The notes below the pieces were generated by a model. That model had not been told where the DNA came from. It saw only the letters and a list, made by a program, of their open reading frames with translations, and ran no database searches. 34,385 nucleotides of DNA, taken from positions 1 through 34,385 of the forward strand of contig JACVIX010000021.1 of the NCBI GenBank assembly GCA_015711725.1, written 5' to 3'. The stretch comes from Candidatus Geothermincola primus (lineage in GTDB: Bacteria; Actinomycetota; Geothermincolia; Geothermincolales; Geothermincolaceae). The stretch's first letter is position 1. Each line of letters begins with the position of its first letter. This document shows, one piece after another, positions 14,323 to 24,835 of this stretch. Position numbers and translations under genes: made by a program.

Positions 14323-15255
14323 TTAACCGTTGAGTTCTTCGGGATAGGGGGAGAAGAAAGACTGGTCCAGAAGATGGCCCCGTCCCAATGTGGTTATCCA
14401 GGCCTTCACCATCCATCTAGGCTCCCACAGAGGCGCTTCCCCAACTCTGAAACGGTCCAACAGCTCATCGAAACAAAGCTTCTCCTCTTGGGGAATACTC
14501 CCAGCCATTCCTTCCCAAATCTCCCTCAACATGTCCACCAGGCCTCCCTCATGTGGGGGGCGGGAAAGGGCTTTCCACAATCCTTTTTCGTAATTTTCCA
14601 TCACTTCGCGAGGAGTGTAAACCTCCCGATTGGCAAGCTGCTCGTTGAGGTTGTCTATCTCGAACTGGTCATAAACGCTGAGCAATATCCGGTGTTTTTT
14701 ATGAAACCGAATAAGCTTCTCCACCTCTCCGCTCTCCTTCACCTCCCTGAAGTCAGCAAGAATGAAAAGCTTGGTCAGGAAATGCTCCCTCATCCTGTGA
14801 TTTTCTAGGCGAGATTCATCGGCTAGCGCCAGATGTGAAAATCTCTCCAGCACCCCCGCTCCGAAGAATCCTGCTCCTTCTCCCTTTAAGGTTTTCTTCT
14901 CCGCGTCCCCATATATCTTCGTGTCGGTGAGCCCACAAGAAGGGGAACGACTTTTAAGCACGAATCCGTCCACCTGGCGCAGGGAAGAAAGGAAACTCTC
15001 CACGAAGTTCTTCATGGGCGAGGTAAAGTCCTTTCCGGAAGGCCATTGGATTAACTTTCTAACCGTCTCCTGCTCCACCACGCAAATGGGGTCCCGAGGA
15101 ATCCCCAATCCAATCTCCACTTCCGGGCATACGGGCTGCACCTGGGCATAGCTTTTTAGTCTTTCTAGGAAGGGCGCCTCCACCATGGTTCCGTCATACC
15201 TGCAAGTGGAGAAACCAAAGCAAGCGCTCATCACTATTACGGGACGCGCATGCAT
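14323..15255 (-). CDS. DUF523 + DUF1722 domain protein (YbbK/YbgA-like)
   Basis: 'VIVMSACFGFSTCRYDGT', 'VCPEVEIGLGIPRDPICVV', 'VDGFVLKSRSPSCGLTDTKIYGD', then 'HKKHRILLSVYDQFEIDNLNEQLANREV'. Confidence 0.9.
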   Translation of the reverse strand: MHARPVIVMSACFGFSTCRYDGTMVEAPFLERLKSYAQVQPVCPEVEIGLGIPRDPICVVEQETVRKLIQWPSGKDFTSPMKNFVESFLSSLRQVDGFVLKSRSPSCGLTDTKIYGDAEKKTLKGEGAGFFGAGVLERFSHLALADESRLENHRMREHFLTKLFILADFREVKESGEVEKLIRFHKKHRILLSVYDQFEIDNLNEQLANREVYTPREVMENYEKGLWKALSRPPHEGGLVDMLREIWEGMAGSIPQEEKLCFDELLDRFRVGEAPLWEPRWMVKAWITTLGRGHLLDQSFFSPYPEELNG

Positions 15256-18705: not shown

Positions 18706-20058
18706 TCAAGCCAATTCCTCCGAATAGAGCCTGATTTGATGAGGACCTTCCCTTCTTGCCGCTTCCAGTGCTTTCATGGCATTCTCCAACAACATCTCCT
18801 CGCTGTCCGCGTTGGCTGGAAAGGAAGATATACCAATACACACGGTAAGCTGCTCAAACTTCTTCTTCTCCCTGGTGGGAAAGGGATATTCGGAAATAAC
18901 CCTGCGCAATCTTTCCGCCAAGCGCATGGCTCCCAGACGGCGCGTCTCCGGCAGAAGAATGGCGAAATGATAGTTCCCATAGCGGGCGGGCACGTCCACC
19001 TCCCGGGTGTTCTTGAGAATGATGTTTCCTAAATCGGAGATAGCTAACTCCCCTATAATATCCCCATGCTTTCTGAGATAATCCTCAAGCCCGTCCACCT
19101 CCATCATCAGCAGACAGAGATTCAGGCTGTAACGGCGGGCTCTGCCTACCTCATCGCATAATCTCTGCTTGAAGTAACTCTCGTTAAACAGGTCGCTTAC
19201 CGTATCCCGGATAGTACTTTTGTCCAGATCGCTGTAGAGCCGCGCCACATATAGGGAGGCGCAAGCCTGAATGGCGGCGGTGGAAATCACCCCCAGATCC
19301 CTGGCGGAGAAGTTCTCGCCGGCTCTTCTCGCCAGCATAATCGCGCCCATGTTGCTACCCCCTGTCAGCAGGGGAACCGCTACGATATATCGCATGCCCA
19401 TTTTCTTAATAAAATCCCCACCCGCATACTCACCAGGCACCACCTCCATCAAGAAGCTACGTTTCTTCTCCATCAAGGGTTGCAATAAAGAACCTTCGAT
19501 TTTGAAAGTGGTGCCCACGAAATTATCTGCACCCTTGCCTTTTGCGATCTGCAGAACTAGCTCGTCTGGCATCTCACCCCGTAGGAAGAGATAACCTAGA
19601 TCCGCATGGCATGCGGAGGTGGCCTGCTCCAATATCTCCCCCATTTTGGGAAAAGCGTCGGAATAAGCCTCGAAAACTCTAACCTTCCCGCTTATTTCGG
19701 TCATCGACCTAAGCATCTCCTCCAGCTCTTCCTCGGCCATTCCATTTCCTCTTAATAAAACCTTGAAGAGAGTGCGCATAGGACTGTTTCTTCCGATGTA
19801 CACTACCTCCCCTTCGAACTCTTCTCGCTCTTTATTCTTGAGATTTTTCGTCGCGATGAGCAGATGAGCGCCGCCCTTCTCTTTTAAGGATTTGAGGTCC
19901 GATAACGTATTGGGCCGCTTCAGTCTGGAGTTCCATTTCTTCTCCAGATCCTTTTCCACCCAGCCCACCACCTCGATCTGGCCCCCGAAGCCTAACAGAC
20001 TTTCGTAGATATTTACGGCTAGCTGGTCGAAACCGTAAAACGCAACCCTCATTGCCAT
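18706..20058 (-). CDS. Signalling protein: N-terminal Rossmann-like region, GAF domain, degenerate GGDEF domain
   Basis: 'MRVAFYGFDQLAVNIYESLLGFGGQIEVVGWV'; GAF-like 'FLMEVVPGEYAGGDFIKKMGMRYIVAVPLLTGGSNMGAIMLARR'; GGDEF-domain C-terminus with 'ARYGNYHFAILLPET' in place of RYGGDEF. Confidence 0.8.
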   Translation of the reverse strand: MAMRVAFYGFDQLAVNIYESLLGFGGQIEVVGWVEKDLEKKWNSRLKRPNTLSDLKSLKEKGGAHLLIATKNLKNKEREEFEGEVVYIGRNSPMRTLFKVLLRGNGMAEEELEEMLRSMTEISGKVRVFEAYSDAFPKMGEILEQATSACHADLGYLFLRGEMPDELVLQIAKGKGADNFVGTTFKIEGSLLQPLMEKKRSFLMEVVPGEYAGGDFIKKMGMRYIVAVPLLTGGSNMGAIMLARRAGENFSARDLGVISTAAIQACASLYVARLYSDLDKSTIRDTVSDLFNESYFKQRLCDEVGRARRYSLNLCLLMMEVDGLEDYLRKHGDIIGELAISDLGNIILKNTREVDVPARYGNYHFAILLPETRRLGAMRLAERLRRVISEYPFPTREKKKFEQLTVCIGISSFPANADSEEMLLENAMKALEAARREGPHQIRLYSEELA

Positions 20059-21040: not shown

Positions 21041-22342
21041 CTACGCTTTGGTCTCCTCAAAAATGCCGGTCCAGAGGCCTAGAGCCACGGCAAGCTCCTT
21101 ATGGTCCTTGGCATATTCCTCCAATGATACGTTCTGCATGGTGGCGTCAATCGCTTGGCGGAAAGCTCTGGCTCCAGCGGTGGGTCCCATAGGATGAGCG
21201 TGGATGCCTCCTCCGGAACCGATCATGATATCTTTGCCCAGGTCGGCGACGCAAGTTGGGACCATCTGCGGAGTGATACCCCCGGAAGGCATGGGCATGC
21301 TAGGTTTTATGTTATGCATGGGATAGGTCATGGTATCCGCGGTGACCAGATAACGGTCCTTCAGATAAGGAGCTTTGCCATAAGGCGCAGGAAAAACGAT
21401 GATGTCCGCGCCCGCCAGACGGGGCAATTTCGCCAGCACCAAGTGGGAAGAGATACCCGAGTAATGAGACTCATAGAGCGCGCCCGCGCAGTCCATGTGG
21501 GCTAGAATGGGTACGTTTATCTCGGGATCCTCCGCCAGGGCCTGCAGGGCGGGAAGCCCCACCGCCAGATAATTGACCATGATGGCATTGGCGCCCGCGT
21601 CCACCGCGCGCTTGGCGGTCTCGAACATCTTGGGCACGCTGTCGCTAACATTCACGGTGTAGAGGGTATGTTCGCCGGTCTCCTCGTAGACTTTTTTCTC
21701 AAGCTCCATGTAGGCGCGCACCCGGTCTTCCACCCGATTGAAAGACATATCCGCGATGAGCTCGTCATCCTTGATCACGTCGCATCCTCCTAGAGCCACC
21801 TCATAGAAGAGTTTCGCCCCCACCTCGCAAGGATATCCTGTGCAGGGCTTGGTCATGTTGTTGATAAGCGGGCGGTCTTTCACGCCTAATAAATCCTGGA
21901 CCCCTTCGATGCCGAATTTAGGTCCCTTGAACCCATCGGTGTAGATCTTGGGAAGGTAGATGTCCAATAGCTTGATCTTGCCTCCCATGGAGATGTTTCC
22001 CACCACCGCGGTGAGCAGCATGGGAATCTGGCTCTCGATGTTGCGGTAGGGAAAGGCTATCTGCACTATATAAGTGCGTTCCTCCACCTCCTTGGGCACC
22101 TCGAATTCGTACTGGGGCACCTCGTAGATACCGATTACCTTGGCCACGTGTTTCGCCCTGACCTCGGGGGTCTCCCCCGGAACAGGGGTCCAAGTTCCCG
22201 TGGACTGTTCCACCGCCAAGAATGGGGCCATGTAGTACATGATCATATCCCGCGGCACTTGGGCGTAATAGGTTGCCACGATCTGATCCCCGTAATCGAT
22301 CCCCTCGGGCAGGGCCCTGGGCTCAGCCTCAAAATACTTCAT
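21041..22342 (-). CDS. RuBisCO-like protein (RLP, form IV type)
   Basis: 433 aa; 'NMTKPCTGYPCEVGAKLFYEVALGGCDVIKDDELIADMSFNRVEDRV' (KDDE), 'AGADIIVFPAPYGKAP', 'PSGGITPQMVP', 'GSGGGIHAHPMGPTAGARA'; RBS AAAGGAGGAG upstream. Confidence 0.93.
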   Translation of the reverse strand: MKYFEAEPRALPEGIDYGDQIVATYYAQVPRDMIMYYMAPFLAVEQSTGTWTPVPGETPEVRAKHVAKVIGIYEVPQYEFEVPKEVEERTYIVQIAFPYRNIESQIPMLLTAVVGNISMGGKIKLLDIYLPKIYTDGFKGPKFGIEGVQDLLGVKDRPLINNMTKPCTGYPCEVGAKLFYEVALGGCDVIKDDELIADMSFNRVEDRVRAYMELEKKVYEETGEHTLYTVNVSDSVPKMFETAKRAVDAGANAIMVNYLAVGLPALQALAEDPEINVPILAHMDCAGALYESHYSGISSHLVLAKLPRLAGADIIVFPAPYGKAPYLKDRYLVTADTMTYPMHNIKPSMPMPSGGITPQMVPTCVADLGKDIMIGSGGGIHAHPMGPTAGARAFRQAIDATMQNVSLEEYAKDHKELAVALGLWTGIFEETKA

Positions 22343-22363
22343 CTCTCACTCCTCCTTTACTGG

Positions 22364-23899
22364 TCATGCCGGTTCGTTTATCTCTCGATAAACGCCGGAA
22401 AGCTTCCTGTAAATCTTCTTGAAAGTCTCAAAGAGTTCCCCATAAATGGCTCGCTTTCCACTGTCGGGATGATAAGCCTTCCTCACTTTGACCACATTTT
22501 TCAAATCTTTGTAATTGTTATATACGTTTAACGCCACGGCCACCGCCAGCGCGCAACCAACCGCTCCCGCTTCTTGGGAATATTCCACCGCCTCCACGGT
22601 GTGGCCAGTCACATCGGATAGAATCTGCATCCAGATATCGCTGCGCGCACCTCCTCCGATAGCCCTTACCGGGTTACAGGAATAACCAGCGTTTTTTACC
22701 GCCTCCAGCAGCCAGCGGAAGTTGAGTGCCACTCCCTCATAGACCGCCCTTAATATATCCTCGCGCGTGCTCTCCAAGCTGATATTCAAAAAAGCGCCAC
22801 GCAAGGTGGTGTCGGTCACCGGAGATCTTTCCCCGAACATCCAAGGGGTAAAGATTAACTTCCGAGAACCCGGGGGGACTTTCTCCACGACTTCGTCCAA
22901 CACGGCGAAGATCTCCATCTCTTCTTTAGCCCTTTTCCATTCCTCTTCTTTCCCAAACTGCTCCGCGAACCATTTTAAACATGCTCCCGCGGTCTCCGTC
23001 TCCCCTATCATGAGAAAGCTTGCTGGATCGGCGGAAGCGATGGAAGCGATCCCATACTTAGAGAGGGAACGCGGTTTAGGCGTGCTGATACATAGCCATC
23101 CCGAGGTACCTATATAGATATGGCAGTCCCCGTCATCAAGCGCCCCCGATCCGGTGGCTGCGCTGGGCACGTCCCCCATGCCAGCGATCACGGGAGTTCC
23201 CGCGCTTAATCCCATATCTTCCGCCGCCTTGTCGGTGAGCACCCCGGCGATATCTATGGACCTCTTCACCGGGGGCAATTTTTCCAGTGGAATCTTCAAT
23301 ACCCGGGCGAAAAGCGGGGACCAGTCACGGGTTTTGTTGTCCAGCAGCCCGGTGGTCGCCGCATTGGTCTGATCCACAATCATATTACCGGTCGCGCGAT
23401 AAACCAGATAGCCACAGACATCTAAAATCTTATGGGTCGCCTCAAAGATCTCCGGTTCCTCCTCGCGCAGCCACTGGATCTTGCAGACCACATCCTTGCC
23501 CGAAGGGACCGCTCCCGCCAATTTGGCCACCACCTTTTCCCCGCCCAGGCGTCTGACCAGCCTGGTTGCTTGCTCCTCCGCCCGGCAGTCTAGCCATATG
23601 ATGGAAGGCCTCAACGTTTCTCCACCTTTATCCACCGGGACCACTCCTAGCATCTGGGTGGCGAACCCGATCCCCATGACCTCTTTGGGATTGATCTGGT
23701 TTTCCTCCACCAGTTTGCGAGTGGAGGCACATACAGCATCCCACCAATCCTCCGGATTCTGCTCCGCCCATCCCGGCCTGCAATAATCGGTTTCATAGGG
23801 CTCGAAACGATAGGCGATAATCTTTCCAGCGGTGTCGGTGAGCACCGCCTTGCTCCCTCCGGTCCCCACGTCGTAGCTGACAATGAATTTTCCGCTCAT
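22364..23899 (-). CDS. FGGY-family carbohydrate kinase (xylulokinase-like)
   Basis: ATG at 23899 behind AGGGGG; 'SYDVGTGGSKAVLTD', 'GIGFATQMLGVVPVD', 'PSIIWLDCRAEEQ', 'ALDDGDCHIYIGTSGWL', 'AIGGGARSDIWMQILSDVTGHTVE'. Confidence 0.92.
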   Translation of the reverse strand: MSGKFIVSYDVGTGGSKAVLTDTAGKIIAYRFEPYETDYCRPGWAEQNPEDWWDAVCASTRKLVEENQINPKEVMGIGFATQMLGVVPVDKGGETLRPSIIWLDCRAEEQATRLVRRLGGEKVVAKLAGAVPSGKDVVCKIQWLREEEPEIFEATHKILDVCGYLVYRATGNMIVDQTNAATTGLLDNKTRDWSPLFARVLKIPLEKLPPVKRSIDIAGVLTDKAAEDMGLSAGTPVIAGMGDVPSAATGSGALDDGDCHIYIGTSGWLCISTPKPRSLSKYGIASIASADPASFLMIGETETAGACLKWFAEQFGKEEEWKRAKEEMEIFAVLDEVVEKVPPGSRKLIFTPWMFGERSPVTDTTLRGAFLNISLESTREDILRAVYEGVALNFRWLLEAVKNAGYSCNPVRAIGGGARSDIWMQILSDVTGHTVEAVEYSQEAGAVGCALAVAVALNVYNNYKDLKNVVKVRKAYHPDSGKRAIYGELFETFKKIYRKLSGVYREINEPA

Positions 23900-24199
23900 C
23901 AACGCCCCCTCATTTTATCCGATTCGTTCCAAAAAACATCTGATAAGCTCTCCATCAGCCGAAAAGGACTTCAGCATTTTCTCAAGGGACACTCTACTCA
24001 TGCTTATACCCATATAAAACTATGTTTATGGCTTCGCTCCTCCGATCAACGCTCCCGAACCCATAGCAGCGATTGTAAATTTCCGCAGTTACGCAAGAAT
24101 CCCAGGAAGACCTCTTTTTATCGTTATGGTTATTTCCTTCACGGACAACGAGGTTACTCACCAAGCACTCCCATCGCTATCATTACAAAATGTCAATAA

Positions 24200-24835
24200 T
24201 TAAACAATTTTATTCATTCCTAGCTTTTGGAAACTTTTCAGCATTTCCAGAGCTAACCCCATGCCTTTACGAAGATCGAAAGCCTGGGAATCCTCCAACC
24301 ACTGGATCTCCATCCCTTCCACCAATCCAAGCAGCATGCAGGAGAGGTAATAAGCATCGAAGGGTGGGAAAACACCTTCCTCGATTCCCTGAGAAATTAT
24401 CCTTTTAAGCTCTTGCTTGGTCTGTTGTATATATTTGTACAGCTCTTCCACGTACTGGGGAGAAAAAGTCTCCAATTCCTCCGCTCGCATCTTCCAGGAG
24501 AGCTTGCAAAAGTCCCGGTCGCGGTAGTACAGCTCCACGATCTCCTCTCCCAGCCAGGTAAGCTTATCCAGCGCGCTCCCATTTCTTTTAGACGCCTCGC
24601 CGACCAACCGAAGGAACTCCTCGTGCATCTCCCTGATCAAAGCGAAATAAAGTTCCTCCTTTGATTTCCAATACCAATAGAGAGTGCCTTTACCAAAACC
24701 CGCCTCTAAAGCTATCTCCTGCATGGTGGCTTTATGGTAACCTTTGGAGGAAAAGACTCTGAGCGCTGCTCGCTTGAAAGCCGTTTCCCGTTCATCCTTG
24801 AGGGGATTTTTACGTAATCCCAGTGTCTTGGCCAT
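24200..24835 (-). CDS. TetR/AcrR family transcriptional regulator
   Basis: 'RETAFKRAALRVFSSKGYHKATMQEIALEAGFGKGTLYWYWKSKEELYFALI' HTH. Confidence 0.94.
   Translation of the reverse strand: MAKTLGLRKNPLKDERETAFKRAALRVFSSKGYHKATMQEIALEAGFGKGTLYWYWKSKEELYFALIREMHEEFLRLVGEASKRNGSALDKLTWLGEEIVELYYRDRDFCKLSWKMRAEELETFSPQYVEELYKYIQQTKQELKRIISQGIEEGVFPPFDAYYLSCMLLGLVEGMEIQWLEDSQAFDLRKGMGLALEMLKSFQKLGMNKIV

Follow-up and report, generated by a model that had tools for sequence, protein, structure and literature searches.

Which reaction is catalysed by a RuBisCO-like protein (RLP) that is encoded directly behind a sugar kinase of the FGGY family? To our knowledge, only few RLP reactions are known, i.e., the methionine-salvage enolase, the MTRu-1P isomerase and apionate-type decarboxylation. 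The question is raised by a 34,385-nt stretch of DNA from Candidatus Geothermincola primus (in the following, the window), in which an earlier note had recognized an FGGY-RLP operon outside the named RLP pathways. This reading holds in part: the pair is conserved and its RLP fits no named pathway, while the chemistry proposed in the note (a kinase step, then enolisation, isomerisation or decarboxylation by the RLP) is putative.

The gene pair and its signals

Both genes lie on the minus strand, as the earlier note had them, and open reading frames and Pfam domains agree with this placement. The xylulokinase-like FGGY carbohydrate kinase (22364..23899, 511 aa) shows the FGGY_N (4.7e-58) and FGGY_C (3.9e-33) domains; it starts with the ATG at 23899, and an alternative in-frame TTG start is found at 23902 in the ORF listing. 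After a gap of 21 nt follows the RLP (21041..22342, 433 aa, ATG start), a member of the FGGY-linked clade described below, with the domains RuBisCO_large (1.7e-49) and RuBisCO_large_N (6.7e-11). The ribosome-binding site claimed for this gap can be read from the sequence as AAAGGAGG about 8 nt before the RLP's ATG at 22342, with the GGAGG Shine-Dalgarno motif at 22351..22355 (minus strand). A terminator had also been claimed right after the RLP. Here, a hairpin plus short U-rich tail (AGCGGGGA...TCCCCGCTCTTTTC, about 21016-20986, minus strand) lies 3' of the stop codon, and the 71-nt fold downstream of the RLP is strong (-26.3 kcal/mol, z = -3.25), such that an intrinsic terminator is probable. 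It is likely rather than proven, because the consensus scan of the region alone gave no more sites than shuffled sequences (3 vs 4.3). Consensus promoter scans of the region were at about chance level.

Upstream of the kinase and on the same strand, a domain match reveals a TetR-family regulator (24200..24835, minus strand), which is a candidate for local regulation; TetR homologues are found upstream of the operon in 15 loci of the order. Beside these genes, the window encodes a GAF-GGDEF diguanylate cyclase just downstream of the operon's putative terminator (18706-20058) and a fusion of a 2-thiouracil desulfurase (PF04463) with DUF1722 (14323-15255). The genome (3.17 Mb, 99.7% complete) holds no second RuBisCO-superfamily gene, i.e., the RLP is its sole member. 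The RLP of the nearest named relative, Candidatus Geothermincola secundus, is 86% identical to that of the window.

Conservation of the pairing

Within a sample of 397 Actinomycetota genomes, we considered an RLP with an identity of 60% or more to be of the close type. This type is present in 18/18 genomes of the same order (own genome included), in 11/13 other genomes of the same class and in one genome outside the class. The FGGY gene adjoins the RLP in all these loci, being one gene away in the out-of-class genome.

A species-level scan of 84,980 genomes yielded 505 RLP relatives, the best 80 of which (60% identity or more) were examined. According to the record titles, these relatives belong to Actinomycetota, Dehalococcoidia, Anaerolineae/Thermoflexia, Caldiserica, Cryosericum, Bacillota and 'Deltaproteobacteria'. 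Titles of metagenome-assembled genomes are not always reliable, e.g., a record titled 'Acidobacteria' (L119) and an Actinomycetota genome (G010) contain one and the same contig. The span is at least five phyla, i.e., Actinomycetota, Chloroflexota, Caldiserica/Cryosericum, Bacillota and 'Deltaproteobacteria'. Neighbouring genes were called by codon-usage scoring, and the pairing was counted over the 67 loci among the best 80 of 505 relatives that offer at least 1.7 kb of upstream sequence. In 66/67 of them, the strand of the RLP also carries an FGGY gene no more than 3 kb away, with a median gap of 90 bp between the matched stretches. This adjacency is far beyond chance; the earlier note had made its case depend on such adjacency in relatives. 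The sole exception is a locus (L086:736-4069) where the RLP of the clade has no FGGY gene nearby and is instead preceded by a Glu/Leu-dehydrogenase-like (amino-acid-dehydrogenase-like) and a TetR gene.

The deltaproteobacterial FGGY proteins are only 33-38% identical to that of the window; therefore, the partner subfamily varies while the pairing persists. FGGY orthologues at E<=1e-130 are confined to genomes of the RLP clade.

Clade and active site of the RLP

The RLP scores above no curated NCBIfam family cut-off (MtnW 380/409 and 321.8/513.6 bits, rubisco_III 277/497, OiaX 197/700). In a maximum-likelihood tree of 55 proteins, the FGGY-linked RLPs form a single clade (support 100/99), and MtnW, OiaX/NonPhoto, Photo and forms I-III are all placed outside. 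Its sister is a 51%-identical RLP group within family f11. At a locus of this sister group (L059:5014-11104), the RLP is preceded by a rhamnulokinase-like FGGY, a class II aldolase-family protein and a DeoC-family aldolase, which makes it a second, different FGGY-RLP combination.

We mapped the RuBisCO active site onto the RLP (RuBisCO number=window residue). Kept are E60=E45, T65=T50, W66=W51, N123=N116, K175=K165, K201=K191, D203=D193, E204=E194, H294=H282, K334=K323, S379=S353, G381=G355 and G403/404=G377/G378, while K177 is changed to C167, R295 to M283 and H327 to V316. The same three exchanges (K177C, R295M, H327V) are found in 24/24 aligned clade members, which keep all other listed columns and with them the carbamyl-Lys/Mg triad, the P1-phosphate site and the loop-6 Lys. 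That is, the residue set of forms I-III (K175, K177, K201, D203, E204, H294, R295, H327, K334, S379) is incomplete in FGGY-linked RLPs, and true RuBisCO was ruled out on the three changed residues. The proteins do belong to form IV (RuBisCO-like protein) in its broad definition: N-terminal and catalytic domains are present, the carbamylation/Mg triad is kept and some carboxylase residues are lost. The N123 column is Asn in 24/24 clade RLPs vs Lys in 3/3 MtnW-type references; we take this Lys to be the catalytic base of MtnW, presumably Lys98 of the G. kaustophilus enzyme (Imker 2007).

With regard to the substrate, the three exchanges are informative. R295 and H327 of RuBisCO hold the second phosphate, while T65, W66, K334, G381, G403 and G404 make up the first-phosphate/loop-6 site. 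Since the former are changed and the latter kept, the substrate of the RLP is probably a monophosphate and its enolisation chemistry probably intact. Judged by these residues, FGGY-linked RLPs should bind one phosphate and enolise their substrate without fixing CO2, the latter because the P2 (bisphosphate) site is lost. An AlphaFold model of the RLP (pLDDT 80.7) has MtnW (TM 0.8) and form III RuBisCO as nearest folds; such a match of a predicted structure is no assignment of function.

The kinase shows both FGGY domains and the catalytic Asp in a G-D motif. It reaches 357.6 bits against the XylB model TIGR01312, which is below the cut-off of 380.25. The QMHG motif of XylB reads QMLG in the window kinase, and an S/T-G-K-D loop replaces the XylB loop; these active-site motifs point to no particular substrate.

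A third, amine-handling component

Near the pair, a third gene recurs. It encodes a saccharopine-dehydrogenase-like oxidoreductase (SDH; PF03435 + PF16653) at some loci and a class III aminotransferase (AT; PF00202) at others. The AT comes in two kinds, one near glutamate-1-semialdehyde (GSA) aminomutase and one, in Anaerolineae, nearer to the acetylornithine/aspartate-aminotransferase type. Full context is available for 48 loci: a class III AT is adjacent in 22 of them and an SDH in 16, while no locus has both and 10 have neither. The observed gene orders are SDH>FGGY>RLP, FGGY>RLP>SDH, RLP>SDH>FGGY, FGGY>AT>RLP, FGGY>RLP>AT and AT>FGGY>RLP. When the whole genome is considered, 43 of the 50 module-carrying genomes encode an SDH (49% identity or more) or a GSA-type AT (44% or more), and 6 of the other 7 have the second AT kind near FGGY, mostly directly upstream. 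No third gene was detected in one genome with the module (G436).

This is also reflected in the Actinomycetota sample. Of the 28 genomes with an SDH at E<=1e-100, 26 carry the RLP, as do all 12 genomes with the GSA-type AT. Taken together, SDH or GSA-type AT is present in 30/30 genomes of the RLP clade vs 2/367 others (Fisher p ~4e-43, relatedness ignored); the same-class genomes without RLP (G030, G304) have neither. Shared ancestry within one class confounds this test, while the adjacency from other phyla is unaffected and provides independent support.

In the window's own operon, neither SDH nor AT is adjacent. Both are encoded elsewhere in the genome, i.e., an SDH on contig C208 (60-61% identity, gene truncated where the contig stops) and an AT on contig C140 (66% identity), such that the third component is invisible from the window. 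The two-gene module of the earlier note thus stands as a conserved pair but has to be extended by an amine-handling component that is off-window in this genome.

Where the RLP operon is accompanied by the AT, the SDH is often located beside an FGGY paralogue; such a second FGGY paralogue next to the SDH occurs in several genomes of the class. At two loci (L185:7392-12915, L180:7643-11202), SDH and the second FGGY paralogue have DUF1638, a URO-D-type methyltransferase and corrinoid (B12-binding) proteins as neighbours, which hints that a related substrate may be demethylated. Other neighbours, i.e., histidine kinase, FMN reductase, diphthamide synthase-like, HNH, PlsY, CoA-transferase and PGK genes, were judged to be lineage-level synteny and rejected as module members. 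A phosphoglycerate-kinase-family gene directly follows the RLP at one deltaproteobacterial locus (L141:9014-10273), and some Dehalococcoidia (L121:11026-12674, L090, L115, L120) show an aminotransferase, then a small gene and then a gene of the acetyl-CoA hydrolase/transferase family.

The predicted structure of the SDH (pLDDT 88.6) resembles carboxyspermidine and L-lysine dehydrogenases, which make or break C-N bonds. The best explanation why an enzyme of the SDH fold and two kinds of PLP-dependent AT stand in for each other is that they have an amine/carbonyl interconversion in common. To speak of 'deamination' is a family-level reading, because lyases and mutases also occur among class III PLP enzymes and secondary amines are possible substrates of SDH-like enzymes.

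Proposed pathway and rival explanations

The module itself is well supported by genes, clade, adjacency, co-occurrence and active-site residues; from it we infer the substrate class, the direction, the order of the steps and the exact RLP reaction. In our preferred reading, which we consider about equally likely to be right or wrong, amine enzyme, FGGY kinase and RLP form a three-function module in which an amino-polyol/ketose is deaminated, phosphorylated and then enolised or isomerised. The amine enzyme (the SDH-like NAD(P) oxidoreductase or either class III PLP AT) would interconvert an amino and a carbonyl compound. This step would yield a polyhydroxy-carbonyl (ketose-like) compound, on which the xylulokinase-like FGGY would phosphorylate a terminal hydroxyl. 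The RLP would hold the monophosphate in its retained RuBisCO P1 site with Mg2+ bound via carbamylated K191 and D193/E194, and may form an enediolate by abstracting the alpha-proton. The sugar phosphate, now isomerised or enolised, would then be released and enter central metabolism. Slightly less firmly, we suggest that this is a new amino-polyol/amino-sugar pathway that is widespread in uncultured anaerobes, in which a new functional RLP clade enolises or isomerises a ketose monophosphate from a dedicated FGGY and three amine enzymes (one SDH-like, two AT types) are interchangeable.

A rival reading places the pair in the salvage of SAM by-products. Here, MtnA would deliver 5-methylthioribulose-1-P or 5-deoxyribulose-1-P, FGGY would phosphorylate 1-substituted xyluloses into the same pool and the RLP would be a 1,3-isomerase, a reaction known from the DeepYkr RLP (MTRu-1P isomerase) of the R. 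rubrum MTA-isoprenoid shunt (PMC5893883). The closeness of the window FGGY to the XylB model fits such a role, and the own genome encodes a true MtnA (427.6 bits vs cut-off 279) on another contig next to an S-adenosylhomocysteinase-like gene. Thus, from the earlier claim that the window lacks mtn genes, the local part holds (none in the inspected stretch 14-31 kb), while the genome does carry mtnA. As a functional partner, mtnA looked promising with 44/50 module-carrying genomes above the cut-off, and was rejected since it is common without RLP in related lineages: it occurs in 184/397 sampled Actinomycetota, including the RLP-less class member G030 and RLP-less f11 genomes, and hence does not track the module. 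Furthermore, no mtnA is near the pair at the FGGY-linked loci examined, the RLP lacks the residue changes of 3qfw-type proteins, and SDH/AT would be left unexplained. We therefore keep MTA/5'-deoxyadenosine salvage as a rival only and regard it as rather unlikely. What a real mtnA-linked RLP looks like is illustrated by an actinomycetote (G275 C6:23972-25812, L176), where 30 bp separate mtnA from a different type of RLP, likely an arrangement of the MTA-shunt type.

The module might also work in the biosynthetic direction. Its product would then be an amino-polyol (a lipid head group, a cofactor or a tRNA moiety), and AT/SDH would carry out the final amination. Its near-universal presence in order and class would suit a housekeeping role, and some Dehalococcoidia have a PlsY-type glycerol-3-phosphate acyltransferase gene two genes upstream. 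However, no glycosyltransferase, acyltransferase or ligase partner is conserved across phyla and the nearby TetR-type regulator rather suggests inducible catabolism, so that we prefer catabolic salvage and consider biosynthesis improbable. Similarly doubtful, if not slightly more so, is an OiaX-like decarboxylase acting on a 3-oxo sugar acid that has been phosphorylated by FGGY in place of the DUF1537 kinase. Kinase-RLP pairing does follow the logic of OiaX loci and K175, K201 and K334 are common to both, but the RLP gains only 197 of 700 bits, belongs to a separate, fully supported clade and has M and V where most OiaX-type proteins keep R295 and H327. Finally, a divergent DK-MTP-1P enolase (MtnW) of methionine salvage is very improbable. 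MtnW provides the nearest named models (380/409, 322/514 bits), the nearest PDB sequences and a TM of 0.8; nevertheless, the RLP is below both cut-offs, has Asn for the position-123 Lys, keeps E60 and K334 and lacks mtnB/X/D partner genes at the loci examined. Clustering with MtnW, which the earlier note had named as speaking against its proposal, is absent from the tree. On cut-offs, tree and residue 123, identity with MtnW was rejected.

For the amino-polyol/ketose module, the partner set narrows the substrate class to compounds that offer both an amine/carbonyl and a phosphorylatable polyol. Because the clade is coherent and fully supported, spans at least five phyla and keeps both its active-site signature and its partners, a direct search for the reaction is feasible. 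The reaction would be a further step in the evolution of RuBisCO chemistry and bears on the metabolism of lineages with scarce cultures, e.g., Geothermincolia and Dehalococcoidia.

Comparison with known systems

With MtnW (Form IV-YkrW), which provides the nearest solved structures, the window RLP shares the RLP fold, the Mg/carbamyl-Lys triad and a single-phosphate P1 site. It differs in that the window clade keeps E60, N123 and K334, which are G, K and S in MtnW, and in its partners, i.e., FGGY kinase and amine enzyme instead of mtnB/mtnX/mtnD. The OiaX system (3-oxo-isoapionate-4-P decarboxylase) also pairs a kinase with an RLP gene such that phosphorylation precedes the RLP step. There, the kinase is of the DUF1537 type, as had been stated in the earlier note and as we find in 5/5 OiaX/OiaX-like plasmid loci, where a 'four-carbon acid sugar kinase' adjoins the RLP; here it is FGGY, and the RLP is of another clade with R295M and H327V. 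DeepYkr RLPs resemble our case in a possible isomerase chemistry on a ketose monophosphate, while no cupin is seen at the FGGY-linked loci and the window RLP is not linked to mtnA. Proteins like 3qfw, which we take to be a DeepYkr-like protein and use as a proxy only, differ from the window clade at E204, K334 and R295. The kinase shares with E. coli-type XylB the full-length FGGY fold and the catalytic Asp (357.6 bits), but it stays below the cut-off of 380, has QMLG for QMHG and the S/T-G-K-D loop, and no xylose isomerase is seen nearby.

Within the same phylum, deep Actinobacteria (Ca. Hakubanella) encode an RLP without assigned function, next to which an epimerase-like gene and a DeoR-type regulator are reported (PMC7325909). 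This context resembles the f11b type and not the FGGY-linked one. At an f11b locus (L064:4804-13288), the RLP lies by genes for a PEP-hydrolase-like protein (PF09370), UPF0261, an MFS-like transporter, a xylose-isomerase-like TIM barrel and a DeoR-like protein. In the open-access literature, we found no paper that joins 'RuBisCO-like protein' with FGGY, xylulose kinase or saccharopine dehydrogenase; subscription journals and preprints were outside this scope, so an RLP family survey may describe the combination. Compared to the known RLP-kinase pathways, the module differs in three respects: it combines another kinase class with another RLP clade and adds an amine component.
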